From Zeimonas sediminis (GTDB lineage: Bacteria; Pseudomonadota; Gammaproteobacteria; Burkholderiales; Burkholderiaceae_E), in the NCBI RefSeq assembly GCF_023721795.1, contig NZ_JAMQYE010000001.1:1674001-1738000 (forward strand): a DNA stretch of 64,000 nucleotides. Direction: 5' to 3'. Below the pieces are notes generated by a model. The model was given only the letters and a program-made list of their open reading frames with translations, ran no database searches and was not told the DNA's origin. Positions 6,587-16,379 of the stretch are shown one piece after another; positions within the stretch are counted from its first letter, which is position 1, and each line of letters begins with the position of its first letter. Position numbers and translations under genes: made by a program.

Positions 6587-6829
6587 ATGCGTAAGGAGAG
6601 CGAGCTGGTCGAGTCCACCGTCACGGTCAAGGGCCAGACGACCGTGCCAGCGCGGGTCAGGGACAGGATAGGCGCCGGGCCCGGCACCCGCCTCGTATGG
6701 CACGTGATGCCCGACGGCAGGGTCATCGTCCGTGCCAAGACCCGATCGATCCTGGAGCTCTCCGGAATGCTCGAGCCCCAAAAGGGCAAGCACGTGACCG
6801 TGGAACAGATGAACGCCTGGGGCGATTAG
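6587..6829 (+). CDS. AbrB/MazE-type antitoxin
   Basis: An 80-residue SpoVT/AbrB swapped-hairpin DNA-binding protein. The core STVTVKGQTTVPARVRDRIG (about residues 9-28) is the classical AbrB motif. The C-terminal tail (LEPQKGKHVTVEQMNAWGD) would bind and block the toxin. It is followed after 13 bases by a PIN-domain gene, the standard antitoxin-toxin order. The pair probably represses its own promoter in the 106-base gap upstream, as such systems usually do, though no clear operator was picked out. Confidence 0.87.
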   Translation: MRKESELVESTVTVKGQTTVPARVRDRIGAGPGTRLVWHVMPDGRVIVRAKTRSILELSGMLEPQKGKHVTVEQMNAWGD

Positions 6830-6842
6830 GGTAGTCACGCCG

Positions 6843-7244
6843 GTGCCCGCGCTCGATACCAACGTGCTGGTCCGCTACCTGGTGCGAGACGATGCCACAC
6901 AGCTCGCAGCGGCAAGGAGGCTGATACGGCGCTGCATTTCGGAAGGACAGGCGCTGCACGTTCCGGTCACCGTATTCCTCGAACTGGAGTGGGTGCTGCG
7001 TTCGAATTTCGGCTTCGGAAAGAGCGAAGTGCTTCGGGCTCTTTCCGCCCTGCTCTCCACTGCGGAGCTGAGCTTCGAGTCCGAAACCGCCCTGGAACTC
7101 GCGCTCGCCCGCTACACCGAGAGCTCGGCCGACTTCCCGGATTGCCTGCACGTGGCGTTGGCGATCCAGGCCGGCCATCCGCCGCTGTGGACTTTCGACA
7201 AGGCGGCAGCGCGGATCGACGGCGCAAGGCTGCTGCGCGGCTGA
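6843..7244 (+). CDS. PIN-domain toxin, VapC-like ribonuclease
   Basis: A 133-residue PIN-domain protein, the likely RNase toxin paired with the AbrB-type antitoxin just upstream. Acidic metal-binding residues are visible in ALDTNVLVRYLVRDD (first Asp at residue 4), the Glu in FLELEWVLR, the Asp in SADFPDCLH, and a further Asp in WTFDKAA. Start is a GTG at 6843. VapC toxins cut tRNA or rRNA; the target here is unknown. No inactivating change is seen, so the pair should be functional. Confidence 0.87.
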   Translation: MPALDTNVLVRYLVRDDATQLAAARRLIRRCISEGQALHVPVTVFLELEWVLRSNFGFGKSEVLRALSALLSTAELSFESETALELALARYTESSADFPDCLHVALAIQAGHPPLWTFDKAAARIDGARLLRG

Positions 7245-8579: not shown

Positions 8580-11099
8580 TCAGTGCTCGAACTCGAGGCC
8601 AACCGACCGCGAGTCCAGGATCCGCGCCTTGCACTCGTAACGACGCTCGATCGTTCGCAGCACGCGCTCGAGACTGGCCGAAGTCTCCAGTGGCTGCACA
8701 CCGACCAGGTCTGCATCGGCCCGAGCGTCCCGCACCACCACCGAGAGCCGGAATTCGTCGAACTGGAGCTCCACCCGAAGCCTCGTGGCGCCCGACACGA
8801 TCGCGACCTCCTCGCACCACTCCGTGACGGCCGGCGCCGCTCGGTGGATGACGTCGCCACGCGCCCCCCAGCTGGCACCCTGCCGCTCGAAGAATCGCGA
8901 GATCCTGTCCCTCGTCGCGGCGTCCACCGAAAGCTCCAGCCGCGCCCGACTCGACACCCCTGCGTTCAGGACCAGGTTCAGGCCGAGCGCCAGGATCGTC
9001 GAGATCGCCAGCGGGCTGCCCATCACGGTCACGGCCCAGGCAGGCGCGTCCGCAGCGATGCCCGGCATCACCATCATCCCGACCCCGGCAAGAAGAGGCA
9101 GCCCGACCACGTAGTTGCGTCGCGCGTCGAGCATGCGCGACGTGATCAGCTCGGCCCCGGAGGAAACCAGGTGGCAGGCGACGAACAGCAACCCGGCCCC
9201 CATCACCGGCGCCGGCATCATCGAGAGTAGCGTCGTGACCTTGGGCATGAAGGCCAGCGCAAGGAACATGCCGGCCACGACCAGGCCGATCGTGCGGGCG
9301 GTCGCGCCGGTCGCTGCCGCCAGGCCCACGCTGCCTCCCGAGATCCCGACGCCGGCGCCGCCCAGCGTTCCCGCGGCCAGGTTGCCCAGGCCGCTTGCCA
9401 CGATGCCGCCGCTCGTCGAACGCACATCGAGCCGCTTCCATCGAGCGTCGTTCGTCTTCTGGCAGCTGGTCACCAGCCCGGCGTCCTTCACGACGGAGGC
9501 GAGCACCGCCGCGACGAATGCCATGGCCAGCGCCAGATCGAATCGCAGCGCCTCGGCGGGTAGCGCATGCACCCCGAACAGCGGCACCTCGCCGACCCGC
9601 TGGACTGCCGTCTCGTCCAGCATGCCCGCGGCGGCCCCGGCAAGGTAGCCGAGACCCATGCCGGCGGCCGTCGCGTAGAGACGGATCCTGCGGAACGGCA
9701 GCACTGAGAGGAGCACGATCGTGCCGAGGGTCAGGGCGCCGACCGCGATGCTGGCGGGCCGTCCGACCGGGCCCCCATCGCCGGCCCCGAAGACCTGCGG
9801 CAGCGCGACGGGCACGATCGACAGGCCGACCATCAGCACGACCACACCCGAGACCTCGGGCGGGAACAGCTTGCGAAAGCGCCGCACGAGTTGCGACAGG
9901 ACGAGGGTGGCCAGGCCCGCGAAGATCGTCATTCCGAAGACGAGACCGAGCCCGCCGAGCCTCGCGGCCAGCAGGCTCGGTCCGAGATAGATCGCGGACG
10001 TGACGTACGGGGCGAGAAACCCGGAGCCCACCCACCGGGATCGCAGCGACTGCAGCACGGTCGCGAACGCCATCGCCACGAGCGACATGCTGACGACCGA
10101 TGCGGCAGTTGCGCGCGATCCGCCGGCTTCGAGGGTGACCAGCACCGGGTAGGCGAGCGACATGACCGCGATCAGGACATGCTGGAATGCGAGCAACAGC
10201 GCGATTCCGCCCGGCGGCCGGTCATCGACCGCGTAGATCAGGTCGACCGGCTTCGCGGAGGTCGATTTCAGGGCGCGATCGAGCCGGGCCGCCTCGATGG
10301 CTGCCGCGGCATGCGCCGCCATCGAGTTGACCGCCTGCAGCTCGCCGGCGCTGAACTCGCGTCGCGCCCGCATCCCGGCCACCAGCACCCCGAACACCCG
10401 GTCGTGCGACCTCAGGGGGCTGCAGACGATCGACTGCAGCACGTTTCGCGCAGCCAGCGATCGCGAGTCGGCGGAAACGTCGTTGACGATCTCGCCGACC
10501 CCGGATCGCAGGACCGACGCAATGATGTCGTCCTCGATGTCCCGGGTCGCCCGGTCGTGGAAGGGGTCGCCGCGCCCGGCCACCGTCTCGAGCCGGTTCG
10601 TCTCGGGATTGAGCAGCAACACGGTCGTGCTGTCGCAGCGAAGGAAGCGCGCCACCTCCTCGCACAGCACCTGCGCGACCTCGCCCGGATCCGTGGCCCC
10701 GATGATCTTCTCCGAAAGGGAGTAGAGCATCGTGACTTCCTTGTAGCGGTCGAGCGACTCGCGGGCGAGCGCGCCTGCCTCGTCGTCCTGCGCAGCCAGC
10801 ACGCGCAGCAGGCCTGCAAGCTCGCCCGAGCGCGGCCCGTGCACGCGCGCCACCAGGCGGCCACCGGCGCTGACCTCGTGGCACTCGGCAGCGAGCTCGC
10901 CGCGGTCGCCGACGACCACCTGTCCGCCGGGATCCGTCACGGCGTGTCCGGGGCCGAGGCGGGCGAGTTCGGCTTCGAGGTGCGCCGCGAGCCCGGGCTT
11001 TCTGAGCAGCCGACGCAGGAACCGGCCGGCGGGTCCCGGGCCGGCCGCGTCGCCGGTGCCGGCTTCCCGCACGCCCCCCGGCGCCTTCGGTTCGGGCAC
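8580..11099 (-). CDS. GAF domain - NCS2 permease - ATPase-like C-terminal fusion
   Basis: An 839-residue chimera starting at a GTG. Residues about 120-272 form a GAF sensor domain (EVTMLYSLSEKIIGATDPGE to AAHAAAAIEAARL). Residues about 295-735 are a nucleobase-cation symporter-2 (xanthine/uracil permease) fold with many hydrophobic helices and the KDAGLVTSCQKTND block; the NCS2 signature, normally QN.G....T, reads SGGSVGLAAATG. The last 100 residues (SRARLELSVDAATRDRISRF onward) resemble anti-sigma-factor-type ATPase domains, though ATP-binding boxes are not clear. It is the last gene of a minus-strand operon after the response regulator (8 bases). It may be a transceptor rather than a simple carrier; function is inference. 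Confidence 0.78.
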   Translation of the reverse strand: MPEPKAPGGVREAGTGDAAGPGPAGRFLRRLLRKPGLAAHLEAELARLGPGHAVTDPGGQVVVGDRGELAAECHEVSAGGRLVARVHGPRSGELAGLLRVLAAQDDEAGALARESLDRYKEVTMLYSLSEKIIGATDPGEVAQVLCEEVARFLRCDSTTVLLLNPETNRLETVAGRGDPFHDRATRDIEDDIIASVLRSGVGEIVNDVSADSRSLAARNVLQSIVCSPLRSHDRVFGVLVAGMRARREFSAGELQAVNSMAAHAAAAIEAARLDRALKSTSAKPVDLIYAVDDRPPGGIALLLAFQHVLIAVMSLAYPVLVTLEAGGSRATAASVVSMSLVAMAFATVLQSLRSRWVGSGFLAPYVTSAIYLGPSLLAARLGGLGLVFGMTIFAGLATLVLSQLVRRFRKLFPPEVSGVVVLMVGLSIVPVALPQVFGAGDGGPVGRPASIAVGALTLGTIVLLSVLPFRRIRLYATAAGMGLGYLAGAAAGMLDETAVQRVGEVPLFGVHALPAEALRFDLALAMAFVAAVLASVVKDAGLVTSCQKTNDARWKRLDVRSTSGGIVASGLGNLAAGTLGGAGVGISGGSVGLAAATGATARTIGLVVAGMFLALAFMPKVTTLLSMMPAPVMGAGLLFVACHLVSSGAELITSRMLDARRNYVVGLPLLAGVGMMVMPGIAADAPAWAVTVMGSPLAISTILALGLNLVLNAGVSSRARLELSVDAATRDRISRFFERQGASWGARGDVIHRAAPAVTEWCEEVAIVSGATRLRVELQFDEFRLSVVVRDARADADLVGVQPLETSASLERVLRTIERRYECKARILDSRSVGLEFEH

Positions 11100-11107
11100 G
11101 TCGCCCC

Positions 11108-11491
11108 CTACTCGTCGACGAAGCCCAGCGCCTGGCGCACCGCCGCCAGCAGCGCGTCGGGGTCGAAGGGCTTGATCAGGTAGCCGTTCGCCCCGACCTC
11201 CCGGGCCCTGGCGCGGTCGTACTCCTGTCCCTTGGCAGTAAGGAAGATGACATGCGCGTGGCGGGCAGCCTCGTCGCGCCTGAGGCTCTCGCAGACTTCG
11301 AAGCCGTTCATGCCCGGCATCATCACGTCGAGCAGCACGACGTCCGGGCGCGCCTCGAGGATCGTCGACAGGGCGGTCGTGCCGTCCGGAGCGACGAGGA
11401 TCTCCACCCCGTCGTCCTCCAGTTCCTCGATGCTGCGCTCGATCAGGGTCCGGATATGGGCCTGGTCCTCGGCGATCAACACCTTCTTCAT
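11108..11491 (-). CDS. Single-domain (CheY-like) response regulator
   Basis: A 127-residue receiver domain with no output domain. The acidic pair is at AEDQ, the phospho-acceptor Asp is residue 55 (LLDVMMPG), the switch Thr is in FLTAKG, and Lys107 lies in IKPFD. Its ATG overlaps the TGA of the sensor-kinase gene (ATGA at 11488-11491), making translational coupling and a cognate pair very likely. With no DNA-binding domain it must act by protein contact, possibly with the kinase itself or with the GAF-permease fusion encoded next. Confidence 0.92.
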   Translation of the reverse strand: MKKVLIAEDQAHIRTLIERSIEELEDDGVEILVAPDGTTALSTILEARPDVVLLDVMMPGMNGFEVCESLRRDEAARHAHVIFLTAKGQEYDRARAREVGANGYLIKPFDPDALLAAVRQALGFVDE

Positions 11492-13098
11492 GGGTCCGTG
11501 CTCTCCTGGGGCTTTTGCGCCTGCTCGTCGAATCCGGGAAGCACGAAGCGGAAGGTGCTGCCCTTGCCCGCCTCGCTCTCCACCCAGATCTCGCCGCCGA
11601 AGTCCTTGACGATCTCGCGGCAGATCGGCAGCCCGAGTCCGGTGCCGGTCGGCTTGTCGGTCAGCGTGTCGCCGACTTGCCGGAACTTCTCGAAGATCGC
11701 CTCCTGGTCCTCCGGCGCAATGCCGCGGCCGGTGTCGGCGACGCTGAATTCCACGAAGCCGTCGTGGCGCCGCCGCACCGCGCACCGGATCCCTCCCTGC
11801 GACGTGAACTTGACCGCGTTCGATATCAGGTTGACCAGCACCTGGATCAGGCCGTCCCGATCGGCGCGCACGGCGCCGACGTCCCCGTCCGCGTCGACCC
11901 TGCAGGACAGGCCCTTGGCCGCGAGCAGCGAACTCGTTGCGGCGACCGCTTGCGAAAGGACCTCCGAAGCGTCGACCGGACCGATTTCCCAGCGCATCTC
12001 CCCGGCCTCGATCTTCTCGAGATCGAGAAGATTGTTGATCAGCGAAGTGAGGCGCTCGCCCTCGGCCAGGATGATCCCGATGTGCTCGCTCACCTCCTCG
12101 ACCGCCGGCCCGAGGCTCGCAGGGCCGGACTGGCTGGCCGGACGAATCGTCCGCTCGAGCCGGCGCTGGATCAGGCGCGTGAAGCCGAGGATCGAGGTCA
12201 GCGGCGTGCGCAGCTCGTGGCTGACGTTGGTGAGGAAGGCCGACTTCGCCAGGTTGGCCGCCTCGGCCGCCCTGCGCGCCTCGTCGAGGGACCGCTCGTG
12301 ATCGCGGAGCTCCCGGGTCACCGCATCGAAAACGCCGACCGCCCGGGCCATCTCGCCGATCTCGTCGCGCCGGTCGCGGCCCGGCACCTCGGTCACGCGG
12401 TCTCCGGCCGCGATGGCCGAGAGAATGTCGATCATCTGGCTGATCGGCCGGGAGATCGCCCGGCCGACATAGATCGTGATCCCTATCGAAAGCAGGATCA
12501 CGAGCGCCGCCCCGATCGCAAGCATCCGGGCCAGCCGGGACACCTCCCTCTCGGCGCGCTCGACGGTGGCGAGCGCGGAATCGAGCGATCGCTCGGCGAG
12601 CTCGGAGATATAGCCCTGCAGCTGCTGGTAATGCGCCATGATCGTGCTGATCGACATCGTGTCGACCGGCGCCCCGCCGAACATGCGCATGGAGACTGCC
12701 CTGTGGATCGTCAGGAAGTCCTCGATGTTCGCGACGACGTCGCCGTGTCCGGCCCCGACGGGACTCGCCTTCACGCTGTCGATCGCGCGCGCGATGTCCT
12801 CGTAGCGGTCGAGGATCGATTCGCGAAGATCGCCGAGCACGGGGTCGTCGGGGCCCAGCCGTTGCCGCAGCTGCGCATAGCGCAGCACTGCCGCCTGCAC
12901 CTCCGAAACGGAAAGCAACAGACGCGTCGTGGTTGTCGTGGCGACCGTGAGGGGCCCCTGCACCACTTCGCGGTAGCTGGCCTGCTGCTTGCGAAGCGCA
13001 AGGTCGAACACCAGCATTGCACCGAGCATCAGCACGATGATGATCGATGGCGCGACGAACACGGTCGTCCTGATCGACCACCGGCTCCACGCGCTCAC
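11488..13098 (-). CDS. Membrane sensor histidine kinase with HAMP domain
   Basis: About 536 residues. Transmembrane helices lie at roughly 13-33 and 192-212 and enclose a helical periplasmic sensor region of about 155 residues. A HAMP linker (SRPISQMIDILSAIAAGD) is followed by a coiled stretch, the HisKA box VSHELRTPLTSILGF with His294, and an ATPase domain with NLISNAVKFT, DTGRGIAPED and GTGLGLPI. Start is uncertain: GTG at 13098, or a TTG at 13107 that overlaps the TGA of the TAXI gene and has AAGGG at better spacing. Lying between a TAXI receptor and a receiver protein, it probably senses ligand-loaded receptor at its periplasmic domain. Confidence 0.9.
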   Translation of the reverse strand: MSAWSRWSIRTTVFVAPSIIIVLMLGAMLVFDLALRKQQASYREVVQGPLTVATTTTTRLLLSVSEVQAAVLRYAQLRQRLGPDDPVLGDLRESILDRYEDIARAIDSVKASPVGAGHGDVVANIEDFLTIHRAVSMRMFGGAPVDTMSISTIMAHYQQLQGYISELAERSLDSALATVERAEREVSRLARMLAIGAALVILLSIGITIYVGRAISRPISQMIDILSAIAAGDRVTEVPGRDRRDEIGEMARAVGVFDAVTRELRDHERSLDEARRAAEAANLAKSAFLTNVSHELRTPLTSILGFTRLIQRRLERTIRPASQSGPASLGPAVEEVSEHIGIILAEGERLTSLINNLLDLEKIEAGEMRWEIGPVDASEVLSQAVAATSSLLAAKGLSCRVDADGDVGAVRADRDGLIQVLVNLISNAVKFTSQGGIRCAVRRRHDGFVEFSVADTGRGIAPEDQEAIFEKFRQVGDTLTDKPTGTGLGLPICREIVKDFGGEIWVESEAGKGSTFRFVLPGFDEQAQKPQESTDP

Positions 13099-13103
13099 GC
13101 CGG

Positions 13104-14045
13104 TCAATTCGCGAGGCCCTTGGCCCGGAAGAAACTCAGTGCCCCGGGGTGGACCTCGATCGGACGAACCGCCAGTGCCTTCTCGGCACTGATCCCGCGG
13201 ATCGCCTGGTGCGTTGCGCGGATCTCGTCGAGATTCCCGAAGATCGCCCGCGTGATCTCGAAGATCCGTGTCTCCGGAGCGTCGATCGTCGTGACGAAGT
13301 AGTTGTTCAGCGCCGCGGTCGGAACGGGCTCGCTTTGCCCCGGATAGGTGTTGGCGGGAATCTCGGTCGAGAAGAACATCCGCCCGTTCGTCTCGACGAT
13401 CTCGCGCTCGATCGGCACGATCGCCACCTGCGCGCGAGTGCTCGCGTCGGTGACCGCCTTGACCCCGAGCCCCGCCGAAACGACGATCGCATCGAGCTCG
13501 CCCTTCACCAGCAGCTCGACGCTCTCGCCGTAGTGCAGGTACTCGACGTGGAGCAGGTCGGCGTAGCTGAGCTTGACGGCGCCGAGAAGCGCCCGCGCGT
13601 TGAGCTCGTTCCCGCTGCGCGCGGCGCCCACCGACACGCGCTTGCCGACCAGGTCGCGGATCGAGGAGATTCGCGCGTCGCGGCGGGCGACGACGTGGAT
13701 GTAGTTGGGATACGCAGCGGCGACGAGGCGGATCTTGGTGCGGGAGCTCGGAAAGCCCGCCTCCGGGTTGCCCGCCATCGCCTCGGAGAGAATGTCGCCC
13801 TGGGCCAGGGCGAGCACGCCGACCCCGCGCTGCAACAGGTTCAGGTTCTCGACCGTGCCCTGCGTGGAGCGCACGGTCACCGTGACGCCCTTCAACTCGC
13901 GCTCGAGGATCTCCTTCAGCTTGAGGCCGACCGGATAGTAGACCCCCGCCTTGCCGCCGGTGAGGATCTCGAGCGATTGTGAAGCCGCCGGGCCCGACCA
14001 GCACGCGAGCACCAGCGCGACCCAGCACAGCAAGAGCCTGATCAT
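13104..14045 (-). CDS. TAXI family TRAP-type solute receptor
   Basis: A 313-residue periplasmic binding protein. Signal peptide residues 1-23 end GPAASQS; the mature start LEILTGGKAGVYYPVGLKLK is the characteristic TAXI opening, and GVGVLALAQGDILSEA is a further family block. The start at 14045 has a very strong ribosome site (GGGGAGGAGG). TAXI proteins normally deliver solutes to a fused DctQM membrane component, but none is encoded here. The next gene is a sensor kinase whose start overlaps this stop, so this receptor may feed a signalling system rather than a TRAP permease. Confidence 0.88.
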   Translation of the reverse strand: MIRLLLCWVALVLACWSGPAASQSLEILTGGKAGVYYPVGLKLKEILERELKGVTVTVRSTQGTVENLNLLQRGVGVLALAQGDILSEAMAGNPEAGFPSSRTKIRLVAAAYPNYIHVVARRDARISSIRDLVGKRVSVGAARSGNELNARALLGAVKLSYADLLHVEYLHYGESVELLVKGELDAIVVSAGLGVKAVTDASTRAQVAIVPIEREIVETNGRMFFSTEIPANTYPGQSEPVPTAALNNYFVTTIDAPETRIFEITRAIFGNLDEIRATHQAIRGISAEKALAVRPIEVHPGALSFFRAKGLAN

Positions 14046-15314: not shown

Positions 15315-16379
15315 TCAGCGTCCCGTACCGAACCCGGCGTCGCGCGCCATCACGATCGCCTGCGCGCGCGACGCCACCTCCAGCTTCGCGAACACGTTCG
15401 ACACGTGGTTGCGCACCGTCTTCTCGCTGATGCCGAGGTGCGCGCCGATCTGGTGGTTGTCGAGCCCGCGCGCGAGCAGCTCGAGCAACTCGCGCTCGCG
15501 CCCGGTGAGATCGCCGAACGGACCCGCCTGCGGGGCGGGCGCCGGCAGGAACTCGTGCAAGGCCTCGACCAAGCGCGGCCAGGCCGGTTCGCCGGCGAGC
15601 ATGAAGTGGTTCGCGCTGTCGAGCAGCAGGAAGCGCGCGCCAGGGATGACCTGCGCGAGCAGGCGCCCCTCCTCGACCGGCACCGCCGCGTCGCGCTCGG
15701 CGTGGGCGACCAGTGTGGGGCACGCGACGCGAGACGCCGAGGGCTGCACGTCGACCTCGAACATCGCCTGGGTCAGCACCGCGGCATCGGCGGCGGTGGC
15801 CGCCGCGCACTGCAGCTCGTACCACGAACGCAGGTGCTCCGCCGTGCCCTCGGGCTGGAACTGCGTGGCGAACACGCTCATGAAGGCATGGTCCGGTTGC
15901 GCCCAACCGACCCTGATCATGTCGAGCATCACCTTCGCTTTCTCGGGCTCGAGCGGAACCGTGGAGCGCCGGTTGCGGCCCCGCGCGTAGGTGCCGTAGA
16001 GGACCAGCTTCTCGACCCGTTCCGGGTGGCGGGCCGCGAACTCGATCGCGATCGGCCCGCCCTGGCAGATGCCGATCAGCGAGAAACGATCGAGGCCCGC
16101 AGCGTCCACGACCGCGCCGAAATCGCGCACCCAGGACTCCAGCGAGGCCTTCTCCACGTTGCGATCGGAGAGCCCGCAGCCGCGCGGATCGTAGCGCAGC
16201 AGCCGGTGGCGCGAGGACAGCGCCTCGAGCCAGGGTCGCCATGCGACGCTGCGCCACTGGTACTCGAGATGCGTGAGCCAGCTCGGAAGCAGGACGACCG
16301 GCGGCCCCTCTCCCGAGACCGCCCACGCGATCTCGGCGCCGTCGAAACTCTTGCAGAAGCGGACCTGCTGGTTCGGCAT
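15315..16379 (-). CDS. Alpha/beta hydrolase fused to LuxR-type HTH, Cys nucleophile
   Basis: A 354-residue fusion. Residues 1-275 are an alpha/beta-hydrolase with oxyanion region VVLLPSWL, HRLLRYDPRGCGLSD, a nucleophile elbow GICQGG with Cys105 instead of the usual Ser, an Asp in HAERDAAVP and a His in SANHFML. Residues about 291-354 are a LuxR/GerE DNA-binding domain (LTGRERELLELLARGLDN, then GISEKTVRNHVSNVFAKL). Such proteins may sense or process a small molecule and regulate transcription. It stands alone; neighbours on both sides are unrelated. Ligand and targets unknown. The frame is open upstream, but homology begins at 16379. Confidence 0.88.
   Translation of the reverse strand: MPNQQVRFCKSFDGAEIAWAVSGEGPPVVLLPSWLTHLEYQWRSVAWRPWLEALSSRHRLLRYDPRGCGLSDRNVEKASLESWVRDFGAVVDAAGLDRFSLIGICQGGPIAIEFAARHPERVEKLVLYGTYARGRNRRSTVPLEPEKAKVMLDMIRVGWAQPDHAFMSVFATQFQPEGTAEHLRSWYELQCAAATAADAAVLTQAMFEVDVQPSASRVACPTLVAHAERDAAVPVEEGRLLAQVIPGARFLLLDSANHFMLAGEPAWPRLVEALHEFLPAPAPQAGPFGDLTGRERELLELLARGLDNHQIGAHLGISEKTVRNHVSNVFAKLEVASRAQAIVMARDAGFGTGR

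Follow-up and report, generated by a model that had tools for sequence, protein, structure and literature searches.

What does a TAXI-type periplasmic solute-binding protein do when no TRAP permease is encoded next to it, and when its gene is followed instead by genes for a membrane-bound histidine kinase, a lone receiver and an unusual permease? This question is raised by an operon of Zeimonas sediminis (GCF_023721795.1, contig NZ_JAMQYE010000001.1) that is located on the minus strand of a 64,000-nucleotide stretch of DNA (contig positions 1,674,001 to 1,738,000), hereafter referred to as the window. Our answer, to which we assign a rough probability of 0.55, is that this operon encodes a permease that is controlled by a ligand and perhaps fed by a binding protein. 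An earlier note on this DNA, made from its letters alone, had described four tightly packed genes; all of them are present, run from window position 14045 to 8580, and specify the products and domains listed below (the start codons are our choice).

13104..14045, minus strand: TAXI-type solute-binding protein, 313 amino acids (ATG at 14045; TIGR02122, PF16868)
11488..13098, minus strand: membrane histidine kinase, 536 amino acids (GTG at 13098; HAMP, HisKA, HATPase_c)
11108..11491, minus strand: single-domain receiver, 127 amino acids (ATG at 11491; Response_reg)
8580..11099, minus strand: fusion protein of GAF, NCS2-like permease and RsbW-like domains, 839 amino acids (GTG at 11099)
10293..10697, minus strand: GAF domain, residues 135-269 of the fusion protein (PF13185, E 3.9e-14)
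8964..10253, minus strand: NCS2-like membrane domain, residues about 283-712 of the fusion protein (Pfam and structure alignments)
8583..8963, minus strand: C-terminal domain with predicted RsbW/SpoIIAB fold, residues 713-839 of the fusion protein (structure model)

The TAXI and kinase genes are separated by 5 bases, the kinase and receiver genes share an ATGA sequence (a 4-base overlap), and 8 bases lie between the receiver and permease genes. Zeimonas arvi (locus L009) carries this set of four genes too, with gene order and strand unchanged, and the arrangement is hence not a product of chance; the identities are 91% for the TAXI protein, 94% for the kinase, 91% for the receiver and 81% for the permease. 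The ratios of non-synonymous to synonymous substitution rates between the two species (0.16, 0.15, 0.08 and 0.22, respectively) point to purifying selection on all four genes. Conservation along the fusion protein is lowest in its 134 N-terminal residues (63%), followed by the C-terminal domain (73%), the membrane domain (85%) and the GAF domain (90%). Among the 61 genomes that were searched as relatives, two encode the full-length permease protein, the window's own genome and G007, whose match values are those of the Z. arvi locus.

The assignment of the first gene product to the TAXI receptors rests on its matches to TIGR02122 (TRAP_TAXI; E 1.1e-85, 287 bits versus a cut-off of 84) and PF16868 (E 2.7e-71), and its N-terminus is a hydrophobic, signal-like segment. 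The Z. sediminis genome contains seven TAXI-type matches above the cut-off, including that of the operon. In a genome-wide search with hidden Markov models (HMM), DctM (PF06808) was found 345-577 bases from five of the six others; the sixth is a weak and partial match (58 bits) whose nearest DctM is 6.9 kb away. For the TAXI gene of the operon, the nearest PF06808 match is 115 kb distant, and no DctQM-like proteins were detected among the scanned proteins flanking the operon. The absence of a TRAP permease claimed in the earlier note is hence borne out; that note had also named a clear DctQM partner just outside the locus as a finding that would refute its reading, and the genome-wide search detected no DctM within 115 kb. 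We had considered a TAXI-TRAP system with its permease nearby, and this is ruled out by the distance of 115 kb. In a sample of the order, a DctM-like tblastn hit is present within the 1.5-kb flanks of all 17 other TAXI matches at E <= 1e-55, and none is present in those of either copy of this operon's TAXI gene. A TRAP permease likewise adjoins TAXI relatives in all four plasmid regions viewed (of 138 records matched); two of these four operons continue with a further gene, whose annotation is sensor histidine kinase in one case and 'ATP-binding protein' in the other. In the TAXI-TRAP operons on plasmids of Gemmobacter and Agrobacterium (L159, L160), the TRAP permease is followed by a DUF1850 gene and then by an 'ATP-binding protein' or a 'sensor histidine kinase' gene. 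In VcGluP, which like TtGluBP is an L-glutamate TAXI receptor, Tyr45 and Gln93 are named as the most critical residues for glutamate (PMC11574862); by our reading of the alignment, they are retained in the operon's TAXI protein as Tyr36 and Gln82, while Ser75, Glu125, Tyr200 and Met201 are replaced by Thr, Asn, Val and Ser.

The kinase possesses HAMP (residues 211-254), HisKA (284-366) and HATPase_c (413-521) domains and, between hydrophobic segments at residues 13-31 and 193-211, a region of about 160 residues that has no Pfam match. The TorS sensor domain, which is found in kinases of relatives (loci L010 and L194), had no match in the window kinase in the Pfam scan. Response_reg is the only domain detected in the receiver, just as the earlier note had stated in describing it as devoid of an output domain, and Asp55, Thr85 and Lys107 are all present. 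With the phospho-acceptor residues His294 of the kinase and Asp55 of the receiver embedded in the usual motifs, the two proteins have the properties of a two-component pair.

The membrane part of the fusion protein belongs to a known fold but is far from a typical representative of it. Residues 300-679 match Xan_ur_permease (PF00860, E 8.6e-39), and a model of the full-length protein matches UraA best (8omz_A, E 5.6e-15; TM-score by target about 0.78), as found for an NCS2/SLC23 fold; SLC26 entries are matched as well. The GAF part of this model is poor, with a predicted local distance difference test (pLDDT) score below 50 for much of residues 175-281. Key residues of canonical NCS2/SLC23 transporters are the Glu of transmembrane helix 8 (TM8) and the Q/E-N motif that follows it. 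In PDB alignments, Lys538 occupies the TM8 Glu position of UraA and SVCT1, and Gly589-Ser590 takes the place of the Glu-Asn of UraA or the Pro-Asn of SVCT1, replacements that rule out an ordinary xanthine/uracil permease. Across the family, one member out of 52 keeps the TM8 Glu and none has a Gln or Glu at the following motif; to judge from these alignments, the residues usual for NCS2 transport have for the most part been lost. In a tree with 55 rows, 53 family rows are set apart from two NCS2 relatives of more canonical type with support of 100/100; one of these 53 rows duplicates a gene, so that 52 copies were counted for residues, and the tree leaves out the second copy in L011 and loci fetched later.

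The C-terminal domain (residues 713-839) has no Pfam match, and its fold was approached through an AlphaFold2 model built from 23 sequences (mean pLDDT 86). The best PDB match of this model in Foldseek is 6m37_A (E 5.5e-6), an RsbV/RsbW complex, and the 20 PDB matches at E <= 1e-3 comprise 18 RsbW, SpoIIAB or anti-sigma-F entries and two LvrC chains; 6m36_A and similar chains were confirmed as RsbW and not RsbV. By this model, the domain has the RsbW/SpoIIAB fold. The N-box Asn of the ATP site is found at residue 764 in none of the 52 members and at residue 763 in one, with an alignment that is uncertain by one residue. Since this Asn is absent, a docking or binding module appears more likely than a working kinase or ATPase. 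What the earlier note had called an ATPase-like domain accordingly agrees with the modeled fold as far as likeness goes, but an ATPase is made less likely by the missing ATP-site Asn.

What such a domain might do at the end of a permease is suggested by the genes that accompany relatives of this protein. The permease family is sparsely distributed; it was found in 4 of 398 genomes of a sample of the phylum and, in further and partly overlapping samples, in 6 of 61, 4 of 76, 13 of 347 and 14 of 385 genomes. We compared 64 permease loci, from which duplicates had been removed by hand; some of these loci are cut by contig ends, several stem from one genus, and neighbors were counted within 9 kb of the permease match. 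Genes in the relatives were called with a simple script, and some of the calls are surely wrong; the neighbors named here were checked against Pfam where they are cited. An RsbV-like STAS gene is present in 17 of the 64 loci, in each case no more than 400 bases from the permease match, and an RsbW-like HATPase_c_2 gene is found in 14 of these 17 as well (examples confirmed by Pfam and PDB searches). In 12 genomes selected because they show this pairing, STAS matches number only 46 altogether, or about four per genome of roughly 4.5 Mb, and we estimate from this density that chance would place fewer than one STAS neighbor within 400 bases over all 64 loci. Four of the 17 STAS loci represent a single genus (L147, L148, L149, L151), and by our count the pairing is spread over about six groups of tree rows; it may go back to a single common origin followed by losses.

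Several of these relatives also encode a periplasmic receptor. DctP hits were obtained in five loci, TAXI hits in three (one of them doubtful), hits to four other kinds of receptor in five, and one more locus has a Cache-domain protein. The doubtful case is a weak TAXI-like gene in L184, 3.3 kb from the permease with opposite-strand genes in between, which was counted but not used as support. In the alphaproteobacterial locus L194, genes for a DctP receptor, a hybrid kinase with a TorS-type sensor, receivers, a REC-SpoIIE protein, an RsbW-like protein, a STAS protein and the permease all lie on one strand, and L010, also alphaproteobacterial, has the same gene order. L012 contains RsbW-like, STAS, permease, DctP, ABC_sub_bind receptor and large hybrid kinase genes along with a divergently oriented REC-SpoIIE gene, and in L119 and L120 an ABC_sub_bind receptor lies within the permease cluster. 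Receptor, kinase and permease are consequently linked in distant relatives of the window operon, and this wider theme recurs in a minority of the permease family.

Three side observations concern the composition of such clusters. In two genomes of the window's own genus (L097, L098), a distant permease copy has RsbW-like and STAS genes in place of those for the TAXI protein, kinase and receiver. In L147 (1-4693; also in L148, L149 and L151), an open reading frame of 540 amino acids, which by eye resembles a receptor-permease fusion, lies beside the NCS2-like permease; it is followed by a gene for a protein with an RsbW-type HATPase_c_2 domain at its end and a first part that by eye resembles a membrane permease, and then by one for a HAMP-SpoIIE phosphatase, perhaps representing a second type of transporter with an attached RsbW domain. 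In L154 (7850-8776), the gene for a secreted-looking Cache-domain protein precedes that of an NCS2-like family member by about 5 bases.

The simplest account of the window operon would be a phosphorelay set off by the receptor, with the permease protein as its output, and we suggest the following course of events. The TAXI protein would close upon a periplasmic ligand, probably a small carboxylate, and would then engage the periplasmic domain of the kinase, which would autophosphorylate at His294 and transfer the phosphate to the lone receiver at Asp55. In its phosphorylated form, this receiver would bind to the cytoplasmic part of the permease, its GAF domain and/or its RsbW-like C-terminal domain, and thereby set the activity of the protein. 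In relatives, this last step seems to proceed through a partner switch that consists of a receiver-controlled SpoIIE phosphatase, a STAS protein and the RsbW-like domain; a STAS protein naturally pairs with an RsbW fold, and such a fold is predicted at the C-terminus of the permease. The window operon would then be a shortened version in which kinase, receiver and permease remain and the lone receiver replaces the parts of the partner switch. We infer the physical contacts, the ligand and transport throughout. The circuit proposed in the earlier note, leading from receptor to kinase, receiver and permease, fits the clusters in L010, L194 and L012 in outline; the contact between receiver and permease is one that we still only infer. 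Going beyond that note, we consider that the permease may in addition receive its substrate from the TAXI protein, as is suggested by loci in which DctP and permease genes are directly paired (L018, L023) and by the published TAXI-GltS case discussed below. That a single periplasmic protein should both open the gate of the permease and feed it is a tentative idea, against which we would set clearly more than even odds.

The strongest competing explanation, although in our view an unlikely one, holds that the TAXI protein is a co-sensor of the kinase and nothing else, in the manner of TorT for TorS, with the permease importing its substrate by itself and merely regulated by the receiver. The 5-base distance between the TAXI and kinase genes speaks in its favor, as does the equally tight coupling of DctP and kinase genes in L010 and L194 (a 2-base gap and a 4-base overlap), where the kinases match the TorS sensor domain; furthermore, to our knowledge, NCS2 proteins need no binding protein. 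It is harder to reconcile with L018 and L023, where a DctP gene directly precedes the permease gene, neither locus has a kinase hit and no TRAP permease is encoded nearby. HMM searches detected no DctM on the 51-kb contig of L018, and the only one on the contig of L023 is about 283 kb from the permease. In none of the 64 loci did tblastn detect a DctM-like sequence at a distance of up to 9 kb from the permease, but with these queries one (L002) of the five TAXI-DctM pairs that the HMM had found in the Z. sediminis genome was missed; the absence of DctM is hence less firmly established in L010, L012 and L194 than in the window, L018 and L023.

A distinctly less probable explanation treats the NCS2-like protein as a membrane sensor (a transceptor) instead of a transporter, the ligand being read by the NCS2 fold and the signal passed on through the GAF and RsbW-like domains. 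The near-complete loss of the TM8 Glu and of the following Gln/Glu across the 52 members would suit such a function, and so would the signaling domains together with the partner-switch neighbors. Yet Trp554 is conserved in 52 of 52 members and Asp551 in 49 of 52, there is no hit to any signaling query within 9 kb in 38 of the 64 loci, and some members adjoin catabolic genes, as a transporter would. In L114, L026 and L124, the neighbors of the permease suggest short or coenzyme A-activated acids. On the Azospirillum plasmid of L114 (6783-10740), the family member follows genes for a 3-oxoacid CoA-transferase and a 3-hydroxybutyrate dehydrogenase; genes of purine breakdown (guanine deaminase and urate hydroxylase) are found further on, on the opposite strand. 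Finally, an ordinary two-component system that regulates expression and happens to lie beside an unrelated permease, its TAXI protein serving a TRAP permease encoded elsewhere, would accommodate the orphan receptors described in PMC12344293, the many DctM genes of the genome and the kinase-type genes in two of the four plasmid TAXI-TRAP operons, but it is very improbable in view of a receiver without a DNA-binding domain, gene spacings of 5, -4 and 8 bases with synteny in Z. arvi, and the receptor-kinase-permease linkage in distant relatives.

A number of observations weigh against a ligand-controlled and perhaps receptor-fed permease. The exact set of four genes was found in two closely related species only; rarity of their adjacency elsewhere was what the earlier note had named as speaking against its circuit, and in the strict sense this is the case. 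The first 219 residues of the kinase are matched in just two of 300 genomes of the order, those of the window and of Z. arvi, and its sensor region was for this reason dropped as a general marker; as this region also has no recognized domain, the likeness to TorS-type sensors is one of functional analogy. Within the permease family, 47 of the 64 loci have no STAS neighbor, the 38 loci without a signaling hit count here as well, and in 51 the receptor queries, which covered only a few kinds of receptor, gave no hit. The RsbW fold of the C-terminal domain rests on a predicted model, and its hhalign comparison with the RsbW-like neighbors gave a moderate result (P 1.6e-4, probability 50). More than 20 DctM genes in the Z. 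sediminis genome make an unlinked TRAP partner of the TAXI protein possible. Moreover, relatives of the orphan DctP of L010 (<=50% identity) adjoin DctQM in all three plasmid regions viewed (178 records matched), and we consequently dropped the notion that the orphan DctP proteins are a family confined to such operons.

The individual parts of the operon are of known kinds, and the systems that it most resembles are the following. In the TorT/TorS/TorR system, a periplasmic binding protein serves as co-sensor of a kinase, and the regulator acts on gene expression. SLC26/SulP transporters carry a C-terminal STAS domain; the window permease resembles them in its related membrane fold with a C-terminal regulatory domain, but bears the RsbW-like half of a partner switch where they bear the STAS half. 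With the RsbU/RsbV/RsbW and SpoIIAB switches, it shares the modeled RsbW fold of its C-terminus, and its relatives have RsbV-, RsbW- and SpoIIE-like neighbors; unlike in those switches, its RsbW-like domain belongs to a membrane permease and has no N-box Asn. Fold and Pfam family are shared with UraA, XanQ and SVCT1 (NCS2/SLC23), from which the window permease differs by its replaced substrate and coupling residues and its additional GAF and RsbW-like domains. BctC serves both transport and signaling according to a review (PMC5812351). Like TorT/TorS/TorR and BctC/BctDE, the window operon pairs a periplasmic binding protein with a kinase, but whereas the regulators of those systems act on gene expression, its receiver has no output domain and is encoded beside a permease with signaling domains.

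The closest precedent for a receptor in the service of a non-TRAP transporter is TAXI-GltS of Bordetella pertussis (BP0403/BP0402), in which, as presented in PMC12344293, a TAXI receptor gene is coupled to one for a secondary transporter. There, as in the window, a TAXI receptor has no DctQM nearby and is coupled to a secondary transporter thought to be an elevator; their transporter belongs to the GltS (ESS) family, whereas the window permease is NCS2-like, and the main text of that paper does not contain the word 'kinase', in contrast to the kinase of the window operon. BP0403 is elongated, but TAXI genes of the usual size beside gltS are reported there as well. Apart from the TAXI-GltS and BctC/BctE precedents, searches of the open-licence PMC library turned up no description that we recognized as the composition or wiring of this operon.

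The surroundings of the operon comprise a RidA-like gene upstream and a convergent FAA-hydrolase-type gene downstream. Elsewhere in the window, a gene for a MazE-like antitoxin and, after it, one for a PIN-domain protein (6587-7244) are likely a toxin-antitoxin pair, and positions 15318-16322 encode a fusion of an alpha/beta hydrolase with a LuxR-type DNA-binding domain.

According to the authors of the TAXI-GltS study (PMC12344293), additional classes of secondary transporters that depend on a receptor would put to the test whether it is by virtue of the elevator mechanism that a secondary transporter can make use of a receptor. PMC11362169 describes the SLC23 proteins, whose fold is that of NCS2, as elevators, and the permease family is hence a direct test case for this idea. 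If our reading is true, a partner switch, best known from the control of sigma factors, would act on a membrane permease, and the relatives of the Z. sediminis operon hint at an undescribed way in which a membrane transporter is controlled and perhaps also fed.

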